Part shown: piece after piece, positions 4,894 to 7,388 of the stretch | Numbering within the stretch: position 1 is the first letter of the stretch | Layout of the letters: each line of letters opens with the position of its first letter | NCBI RefSeq assembly: GCF_902764455.1 | Contig: NZ_CACWVY010000005.1 | Location: forward strand, 1-64,000 | Direction: 5' to 3' | Length of the DNA: 64,000 nt | Origin: an uncultured Methanobrevibacter sp. | GTDB taxonomy: Archaea; Methanobacteriota; Methanobacteria; Methanobacteriales; Methanobacteriaceae | The notes under the pieces: generated by a model | The model's input: the letters and a program-made list of their open reading frames with translations, nothing else | Database searches by the model: none | Told to the model about the DNA's origin: nothing | Translations under genes and position numbers: made by a program

Positions 4894-5940
4894 TTAATTT
4901 ACATCCTCATACATTCTCTCTAGAAAACTGGCTAATGAAATTATATCTTGACGATTATGTTCTATTATCGGAACAATCGGTCCAATGTTTTTTTCATTTA
5001 AATAGGCATTATAATATCCTGGAATATACTGTCCTGGAACATCCCCTTCTCTTTCAATACCGAAAAGTTCCTTTTCAATAGTCTGCAGCTGACAATTCGG
5101 AAGTTGGCTGCCCCAAAGGTTTTTTGCAAAATACATCAAGTCAAGGTGCGGCAGTCTGAAATTGATTTCAAGTCTGTTTGACAGGCACCTGTTTCTTATG
5201 TATGGCACATCAAAACTCTTTCCGTTGAATGTTACATGAACGGAATCCTCATCCAGATGTGAGAGGTAAGCTTCAATAACAGCAGGCTCTTCATAAATTT
5301 CTCTTAAAAAGTATTGGGAAGAGATTATTTTATCCTTTTTAAGTTCTGCAACACCAATCAATATTATTGGAACATTTGACAGGCCCAATGTTTCGATATC
5401 CATGAATTTGAAATTTTCCTTGTCGGTTAAGCTTATTGACCTTATAACGTTGTCCCTGCATTTTTTGCTATATCTGTTTTTATCCAACAGATTTATTATT
5501 TCACCAAATGACAAATCATCTATACGACTTGTGAATTTATTTGCACTATCACAATATTTATCATGATTTTTTAGTGATTCTATGGTAGTGTATCCCTTAT
5601 TTTTAAGATTCTCTTCTGTTTTCAATCCGATTTTTGGAAGTAATTTAAGATTACTGTTTATCTGATTTTTAAAGTCATTGTCATCAATTTTAAAGCTGAC
5701 CTTTTCTTCATGTGTAATCTTTAATGTATCCCCATAGGAAGTTGAAACAACTTCGCAATTCTCTATATCATCCAATTTTTTACCTTCCCAATCTTTTAAA
5801 AGTTTTTGCTTATAATCTTCAAAATAGGATGGAGATAACTTTCTTGCACGCTTTTTAGCATCTTCAGATGGATTTAAAGAAGAAATTGAATTAGAAAGAA
5901 CTCTTCTCAGATACATTTCATGTTCATCATAGTTTGTCAT
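4894..5940 (-). CDS. RNase H-like/YprB-type exonuclease domain protein
   Basis: The C-terminal half carries a DEDD-type ribonuclease H-like fold of the YprB class: FMDIETLGL near residue 178 (Asp-Glu pair), VTFNGKSFDVPYIRNR near 238, LPHLDLMY near 265 and HNRQDIISLASF near 330. The central part (about 100-170) resembles helix-hairpin-helix DNA-binding segments, with LPKIGLKTEENLKNKGY. The protein is probably a 3'-5' DNA or RNA exonuclease; the substrate is not known. It is coupled to the downstream repeat protein by a one-base spacer, suggesting the two products work together. Length (348) is ordinary for stand-alone members. Confidence 0.78.
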   Translation of the reverse strand: MTNYDEHEMYLRRVLSNSISSLNPSEDAKKRARKLSPSYFEDYKQKLLKDWEGKKLDDIENCEVVSTSYGDTLKITHEEKVSFKIDDNDFKNQINSNLKLLPKIGLKTEENLKNKGYTTIESLKNHDKYCDSANKFTSRIDDLSFGEIINLLDKNRYSKKCRDNVIRSISLTDKENFKFMDIETLGLSNVPIILIGVAELKKDKIISSQYFLREIYEEPAVIEAYLSHLDEDSVHVTFNGKSFDVPYIRNRCLSNRLEINFRLPHLDLMYFAKNLWGSQLPNCQLQTIEKELFGIEREGDVPGQYIPGYYNAYLNEKNIGPIVPIIEHNRQDIISLASFLERMYEDVN

Positions 5941-6018
5941 TCATTATTAACTTTATTAGTCAATTTATATATAACTTTTTTATAAAGTATAATTGAATTT
6001 TTATAAATTATAAATAAC

Positions 6019-6026
6019 TTTATATA
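6019..6026 (+). promoter_or_regulatory. TATA box of candidate ncRNA
   Basis: TTTATATA at 6019-6026 matches the archaeal TATA box. A start site about 25 bases downstream would fall at about 6046-6050, exactly where the first hairpin of the candidate RNA begins. Confidence 0.5.
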
Positions 6027-6046
6027 CTATAAAAACATAAATAAAA

Positions 6047-6180
6047 TTGGCTACAATGTAGCCTTAGAGATAGATTAAACAGCCAAATTTTAAAATTCAT
6101 TTCTCTAAAAGCTTGTAAAAACAAGTTGTTAGGTAGCAAAATTTATATAGCTACCTAACCATCCAATTGATTATTTTTTA
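6047..6180 (+). ncRNA. Candidate structured small RNA, family unknown
   Basis: An intergenic stretch packed with hairpins: GGCTACA/TGTAGCC at 6049-6063, TTAGAGA/TCTCTAA pairing 6064-6070 with 6102-6108, CTTGT/ACAAG at 6112-6125, and a perfect 10-bp stem GTTAGGTAGC/GCTACCTAAC at 6128-6159, followed by a T-rich tract from about 6170. A TATA box lies about 25 bases before the first stem. It is not recognisable as tRNA, SRP RNA or RNase P RNA. The next gene has its own TATA-like TTTATATG near 6207, so this looks like a separate transcript rather than a leader, although a leader of the coenzyme A operon cannot be excluded. The strand call rests on promoter and T-tract placement. Confidence 0.5.
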
Positions 6181-6255
6181 AATTATTTTCATATTTTAGA
6201 AAAATTTATATGATTTTCAAACTAACTTATTAATAGTAATAATTTAGGTCTAAAT

Positions 6256-6639
6256 ATGAAATTAAAATTAGCTATAATTTATGGAATATTAATATGGATA
6301 GTAACACTCATTCTATCAAATATAATAACCCCTTTTTTTATATCAAGATTACCCGATATGAATATTATTACTCCAATTATTCTAATAATAGTTACAGGGT
6401 TTTTTGGAATCCTATACATAAGAAACATCGATTCAAACGAAGTTATTGAAGGATTTTTAGTAGGAATCATATTCATCATAATTGACATAGTCTTAGATTA
6501 TATCTTTTTGGATAGCTTTCATGCCAAAAATTTAATTTTCACAGATTATTCATTCCATCTTTCATCCATGATTATACTAACATTATTAATTACTACATTT
6601 TTGGGATATTTATCCCAAATGAATATCGATTTAAAATGA
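6256..6639 (+). CDS. Small four-helix membrane protein
   Basis: A 127-residue hydrophobic protein with four predicted membrane segments (about 5-27, 38-52, 66-88 and 100-118). It has no recognisable motif. The gene ends 11 bases before the phosphopantothenate synthetase gene, which is preceded by GAGGAGATAAAAA, so the two are probably cotranscribed. A link to coenzyme A synthesis is suggested only by position. I do not recognise the family. Confidence 0.6.
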   Translation: MKLKLAIIYGILIWIVTLILSNIITPFFISRLPDMNIITPIILIIVTGFFGILYIRNIDSNEVIEGFLVGIIFIIIDIVLDYIFLDSFHAKNLIFTDYSFHLSSMIILTLLITTFLGYLSQMNIDLK

Positions 6640-6650
6640 GGAGATAAAAA

Positions 6651-7388
6651 ATGATACCAAAATCCCACCCGCGATATGAATCATTATTGCTTAGAGACAA
6701 AATAGTTAAAGCTTCCGAAAAAGGATATTTGGCAGACTCAGCAATGATTGCCCATGGAAGAGGAGAGGCTTTTGACTATTTAATTGGAGAAAAAACAATT
6801 TACCCTGCAAAAAGAGCAATGTACGTTGCTGTTGCAGCATTACTTTTATCAAATAATCCGGTTATTTCAGTCAATGGAAATGCAAGCGTATTAGCTATTG
6901 ACGAAATAATTGACCTGGCCAAAGCAGTTGATGCAAAAATTGAAATAAACCTGTTTTACAGGACTGACGAAAGAGTAAGACTTCTTACAAACCTATACAA
7001 AGATCACGGATATAAAGATATTCTTGGCTCACTTGATGATGAGATTGAATATCTAAATGATATCAAAAATAATAGAGCAACTGCAAGTAAAACCGGAATA
7101 TATACAGCAGATACAATATTAATACCTTTAGAAGACGGAGACAGAGCCGAAATTCTTAAAAAAAGCGGTAAAAATACAATTACAATTGATTTGAATCCCC
7201 TTTCAAGAACTTCAAAAATGTCTGATGTTTCAATTATGGACAATATTGTAAGAGCAATTCCATTCATGACAAAAATAGCTGAAGATTTAAAAACTCAGGA
7301 CAAGAATGTTTTGATCGGAATGGTTAATGAATTTGACAATGATGAAAATCTTAAAGAATCTATAGAACATATAAAAAGAGGGTTATAA
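6651..7388 (+). CDS. 4-phosphopantoate--beta-alanine ligase
   Basis: Archaeal phosphopantothenate synthetase joins 4-phosphopantoate and beta-alanine with ATP in coenzyme A synthesis, replacing the bacterial PanC route. The whole 245-residue length matches the family: IPKSHPRYESL at the start, LIGEKTIYPAKRAM near 45, SVNGNASVLA near 75, NLFYRTDERV near 100 and TITIDLNPLSRTS near 178. A strong GGAG lies before the ATG. The stop overlaps the start of the next P-loop gene by one base (TAATG), so both are translated from one message. The assignment is secure at family level. Confidence 0.93.
   Translation: MIPKSHPRYESLLLRDKIVKASEKGYLADSAMIAHGRGEAFDYLIGEKTIYPAKRAMYVAVAALLLSNNPVISVNGNASVLAIDEIIDLAKAVDAKIEINLFYRTDERVRLLTNLYKDHGYKDILGSLDDEIEYLNDIKNNRATASKTGIYTADTILIPLEDGDRAEILKKSGKNTITIDLNPLSRTSKMSDVSIMDNIVRAIPFMTKIAEDLKTQDKNVLIGMVNEFDNDENLKESIEHIKRGL

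Follow-up and report, generated by a model that had tools for sequence, protein, structure and literature searches.

The 315-bp spacer between the start of a minus-strand RNase_H_2 family gene (positions 4894–5940, read from 5940) and an operon on the plus strand (6256–7388) raises the question of whether the stem-loops packed into it belong to an RNA gene and, if so, what such an RNA would do. The spacer lies within a stretch of 64,000 nucleotides from an uncultured Methanobrevibacter species, which we refer to as the window. Of the two flanking units, the divergent RNase H gene is a constant neighbour by annotation and synteny, and the operon encodes a small membrane protein (6256–6639, with a weak match to TIGR04086/DUF3792) and a 4-phosphopantoate–beta-alanine ligase (6651–7388). 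A preliminary description of this DNA had pointed to a candidate new small RNA; that proposal is supported by conservation, covariation, constant promoter spacing and an independent downstream promoter, and on this comparative evidence the element of about 130 bases very probably represents a genuine small RNA gene, equipped with a promoter and a terminator of its own and kept in most of the genus.

The predicted transcript of about 130 nt runs on the plus strand from 6047 to 6179, an extent based on covariance-model matches, covariation, the z-score of the fold and an excess of G-U over A-C pairs. Upstream lie a TATA box (TTTATATA, 6020–6027) and, before it, a BRE-like AATAAC, identified by sequence and by their spacing to the start of the RNA in relatives; this spacing is 28–31 nt, except in a few rows where a simple regular expression took another AT run. 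Given that the TATA box stands 28–31 nt ahead of the first helix, the transcript is predicted to start at or just before that helix, as had been proposed. Helix P1 pairs GGCTAC with GTAGCC (6049–6054/6058–6063; double-sided changes in 3 of 6 pairs, 99% of cells paired), and P2 pairs AGAGAT with ATTTCT (6066–6071/6099–6104; 96% of cells paired), closing a near-invariant and mostly unpaired core (AGATTAAACAGCCAAATTTTAAAATTC, 6072–6098) that stands out by its conservation and by its complementarity to the 5′ leader of thiC. There follow P3 (GCTTGT/ACAAGT, 6111–6116/6121–6126), which the alignment of relatives marks as dispensable, and the terminal hairpin P4, a perfect 10-bp stem (GTTAGGTAGC/GCTACCTAAC, 6128–6137/6150–6159) with double-sided changes in 12 of 13 modelled pairs. 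The tail (6160–6179) carries an AUCC(C) motif and a terminator-like T tract (6174–6179); CAUCCC and the U tract are frequent in the alignment, and at the level of sequence a U tract stands 3′ of P4 in most relatives. Archaeal termination at such tracts has been described (PMC8716108). P1–P4 are all present within 6047–6179, so that the at least four packed helices described earlier, the perfect 10-bp stem among them, hold up together with the T tract beyond the last stem.

The minimum free energy of 6046–6190 is −33.6 kcal/mol, compared with −18.6 ± 3.1 kcal/mol for dinucleotide shuffles (z = −4.8, with 0 of 200 shuffles as good); the minus strand folds less extremely against its shuffle control (z = −3.9). 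Two other pairings were considered. For P2, a register AGAGA/UCUCU was dropped for AGAGAU/AUUUCU because group-2 species carry AGAAAUG/CAUUUCU, and a pairing of TTGGCT at the 5′ end with AGCCAA in the core was ruled out, as species with a GACTAC/GTAGTC form of P1 retain AGCCAA.

Using a covariance model built from 19 sequences (R1), we found the element in 56 of 67 Methanobrevibacter genomes, in one copy each. The same kind of search returned no copy in 18 other genera of the order; its one weak match outside, in G089, is a terminator hairpin at the end of a gene and was rejected as a false positive. Long DNA matches were likewise restricted to the genus in a search of 61 genomes, and the loci examined were all syntenic, with the RNA placed in relatives between the divergent RNase H-like gene and the membrane-protein/pantoate-ligase operon. 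When 84,980 species genomes were scanned for the core pattern, the 40 contigs with a match all bore the name Methanobrevibacter, and viral contigs yielded zero copies. Covariance-model and follow-up searches did not find the RNA in a deep clade (G020, G108, G029 and G032), which seems to be without it; the RNA would therefore have arisen after that split or been lost there. In G008 it has been cleanly deleted from the locus with the operon promoter retained, in G035 and G110 it was undetected and the contig ends at the locus, and in G026 it was undetected. Several side observations were made in these genomes. The RNase H-like gene beside the deleted RNA of G008 (L032) appears split in two pieces; L359, L365, L370, L373 and L377, from five genomes (G014, G017, G008, G120 and G026), carry TAAAATTTGGCTTTTT followed by an AAAAAG..AATATTG-like sequence that is, as far as seen, unrelated to the RNA; and five identical pattern matches spaced exactly 519 bases apart in G009 (C14:10215–12324) make up a tandem repeat that probably lies in a coding region.

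Conservation and compensatory changes in relatives had been set beforehand as the test of the candidate, and both were found: beyond its presence in 56 of the 67 genomes, double-sided changes occur in 21 of 31 pairs and 95.6% of cells are paired in the covariance-model alignment, counts that are biased towards the model given that the 57 rows, which include the false G089 match, were fitted to it. None of 500 shuffles reached the observed covariation values, and slid controls dropped to 32–52% paired; in a plain MAFFT alignment, double-sided changes are still seen in 9 of 25 pairs. P4 is the most variable helix yet stays paired, and shows the strongest covariation. Among relatives P1 switches from GGCTAC/GTAGCC to GACTAC/GTAGTC and reaches an extended length of about 12 bp in G033 and G011, of the M. 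smithii lineage, and P3 is lost or reduced in four relatives. Within the core, AAACAGCCAA (6077–6086) is 100% conserved across 56 genomes although unpaired, and AATTCATTTCTCT is mostly invariant. The plus strand is favoured as the transcribed one, with 42 G-U pairs against 17 A-C pairs once near-constant G-U pairs are excluded.

An invariant and mostly unpaired core (AGAUUAAACAGCCAAAUUU...AAUUCAUUUCUCU) suggests, as a reading of the alignment, that the RNA pairs with other RNAs. In this genome, the only near-complement of a 22-nt stretch of the core (at most 3 mismatches), the RNA itself aside, is the leader of thiC, where it sits 17–39 nt before the ATG. The predicted duplex has an energy of −28.1 kcal/mol, compared with −10.1 ± 2.5 for shuffled leaders and −17.1 for the best of 65 gene starts in the window, and it was equalled by 0 of 301 leaders sampled from a 400-kb sample of G028; these values should be read with care, since the thiC lead came from searching and its z-scores are selected. 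Two blocks, TGAGAA-N14-TTTGACTGTT, recur with constant spacing at thiC in 17 genomes, which share ancestry and are not independent cases, and no second gene carries them in more than a handful of genomes. In this genome and in many group-1 species both are collinearly complementary to two conserved blocks of the core. Three genomes with no RNA detected (G008, G026 and G035) have weakened thiC sites; in G110, where the RNA was undetected and the contig ends at the locus, the site is present. thiC, which encodes the HMP-P synthase of the thiamine pathway, is on these sequence comparisons the best single candidate target.

The limits of this match are equally apparent. A good thiC site is missing in group-2 species and in the M. 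smithii-like G033 and G011, though the core is kept, and sites are weak in the group-1 species G003, G104, G112, G119 and G116, which also keep the core; thiC therefore cannot explain the conservation of the core across the genus. Beyond the subclade that carries the two blocks, thiC ranks no higher than within the top 1% of leaders, and in G028 itself 2 of the 301 sampled leaders pair with the RNA as well as its thiC does. Relatives hardly ever restore pairing at the central C-A mismatch, and the most strongly conserved segments of the leader (TATCAA, AATTTGA and TTGAG) could be an element of the thiC leader's own. As a separate observation, thiC in the genome of the window (G000:C36, L110:256–1484, minus strand) is split into two overlapping frames of 238 and 171 aa, owing either to an assembly frameshift or to a real lesion, while in most relatives it is one frame of about 435 codons.

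Other targets were also considered. A search for complements of the core found no alternative conserved target in group 2; duplex energies of the neighbouring genes as antisense targets were at background, as was pairing with a thiC paralogue, and the remaining near-complements of the core were mostly antisense to coding sequence. Two leaders stood out, that of a DUF2112 gene in G011 and G033 (L326 and L361), which carries TTTGGCTGTTTTAAT, complementary to AAACAGCCAA, some 40 nt ahead of the start codon, and that of a zinc-ribbon gene in G007; both are single cases, roughly as many as chance permits.

The explanation we favour, with a probability of roughly one half, is that this is a genus-specific, single-copy and independent small RNA whose core pairs in trans, as an antisense sequence, with mRNA 5′ leaders, with thiC as the likeliest target in a large subclade. 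An independently transcribed RNA of about 130 nt would fold into three or four hairpins and display the invariant, mainly single-stranded core of 27 nt, which would pair with leaders in trans and so alter translation or stability; in the large Methanobrevibacter subclade that includes this genome, the site would be the thiC leader, about 17–60 nt upstream of the start codon. That the gene is transcribed, that its RNA acts by base pairing and that thiC is the target are inferences, and so is the sign of regulation: repression, by covering the region beside the ribosome-binding site, would be the likelier choice. By analogy with Methanosarcina mazei sRNA162, which pairs via a single-stranded linker and masks the ribosome-binding site of an mRNA (PMC3510493), antisense regulation in trans is the mode with the best support.

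One may postulate instead a structural or ribonucleoprotein-type noncoding RNA whose core serves as a binding site for a protein or as a pairing partner of rRNA or some other stable RNA, with no part in mRNA regulation. This is a possible reading that we hold only tentatively: the 10 core positions that are 100% conserved genus-wide, including in species that lack the thiC site, are what would be expected of an invariant partner, but zero Rfam families match the RNA. No family in Rfam 15 reaches its gathering threshold, and at E-values up to 10 the sole match is the plastid psbM 3′ UTR, on the minus strand and at 23.8 bits against a threshold of 52.7, in keeping with the earlier view that the element is unlike known archaeal RNAs. 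On inspection, the C (RUGAUGA) and D (CUGA) boxes of box C/D sRNAs are absent from the conserved alignment, and neither an ANA box and pseudouridylation pocket of the H/ACA type nor a kink-turn is recognisable by eye. In addition, P3 is dispensable and the RNA is gone from its locus in one species, which indicates that the RNA is not essential there. A bolder form of antisense regulation, in which the RNA controls thiamine biosynthesis across the genus by pairing between its invariant core and both thiC leader blocks, with targets rewired between subclades (perhaps to the DUF2112 leader in the M. smithii lineage), seems to us unlikely.

That the element works in cis, as a leader or riboswitch of the membrane-protein/pantoate-ligase (coenzyme A) operon is improbable. 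The RNA does lie nearly always upstream of this operon and on the same strand; however, its terminator-like U tract precedes the operon, which has a separate TATA box of its own (TTTATATG, 6206–6213, plus strand) that is conserved in relatives and kept in G008 despite the deletion of the RNA, bearing out the early suggestion that the operon has its own promoter. Moreover, the RNA is set apart from the operon by an inserted gene of 280 codons in G013 and by about 590 nt in G097, and in both genomes the RNA is intact and still beside the RNase H gene. The operon's own promoter and this intervening DNA argue for an independent RNA gene, not a leader, and the conservation, structure and independence from flanking genes of this RNA gene are documented by the genome comparisons presented here. 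On its other side, in the interval from the promoter of the RNA to the RNase H gene, the window (5985–6010) and relatives share a conserved AAGTATACTTGAATTTTTATAAA, with a palindromic AAGTATACTT at this site in many species; the site is probably the promoter of the divergent RNase H gene and may be an operator. Some group-2 species have lost about one helical turn of DNA from the stretch that separates this site from the TATA box of the RNA.

A DNA-level or chance feature, such as AT-rich inverted repeats or a terminator between divergent genes, with no functional transcript, is very improbable: the intergenic region is AT-rich and holds many weak inverted repeats, but the covariation, the near-invariant unpaired core, the asymmetry between G-U and A-C pairs and the promoter spacing all speak against it. 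A short protein-coding gene is hardly credible, since the minus-strand frame of about 26 codons seen by inspection across the core in this genome is disrupted by A/T-run indels in relatives, and a plus-strand ATG in P1 stands directly before TAG.

Our search of the open-licence literature returned no account of this RNA, nor of any regulatory small RNA in Methanobrevibacter, and together with the lack of an Rfam match this means that the RNA is best described as a new family of the lineage-specific intergenic archaeal sRNA kind. Methanobrevibacter species are main methane producers of the rumen and human gut, and a conserved, covariation-backed RNA gene with a candidate vitamin B1 target offers a defined entry to RNA regulation in the order. 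Among the closest known systems are M. mazei sRNA162 and sRNA154, which are also intergenic with several stem-loops; those RNAs belong to another methanogen order, however, and the predicted pairing region of the present RNA is enclosed by a helix and invariant in the genus. We know of no sequence relation between them and this RNA. The TPP riboswitch (RF00059) would share with it, under the antisense reading that we favour, the control of thiC, but that riboswitch is a metabolite sensor in cis, and the present RNA would be a distinct molecule pairing with the thiC leader; no riboswitch family was matched by Rfam within the window. Compared with the trans-acting structured RNA motifs of Weinberg et al. 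2010 (PMC2864571), this RNA differs in being archaeal, confined to Methanobrevibacter in our searches and without an Rfam family match, and resembles them in its conserved, covariation-supported structure, its restriction to a lineage and its lack of ties to the downstream gene.
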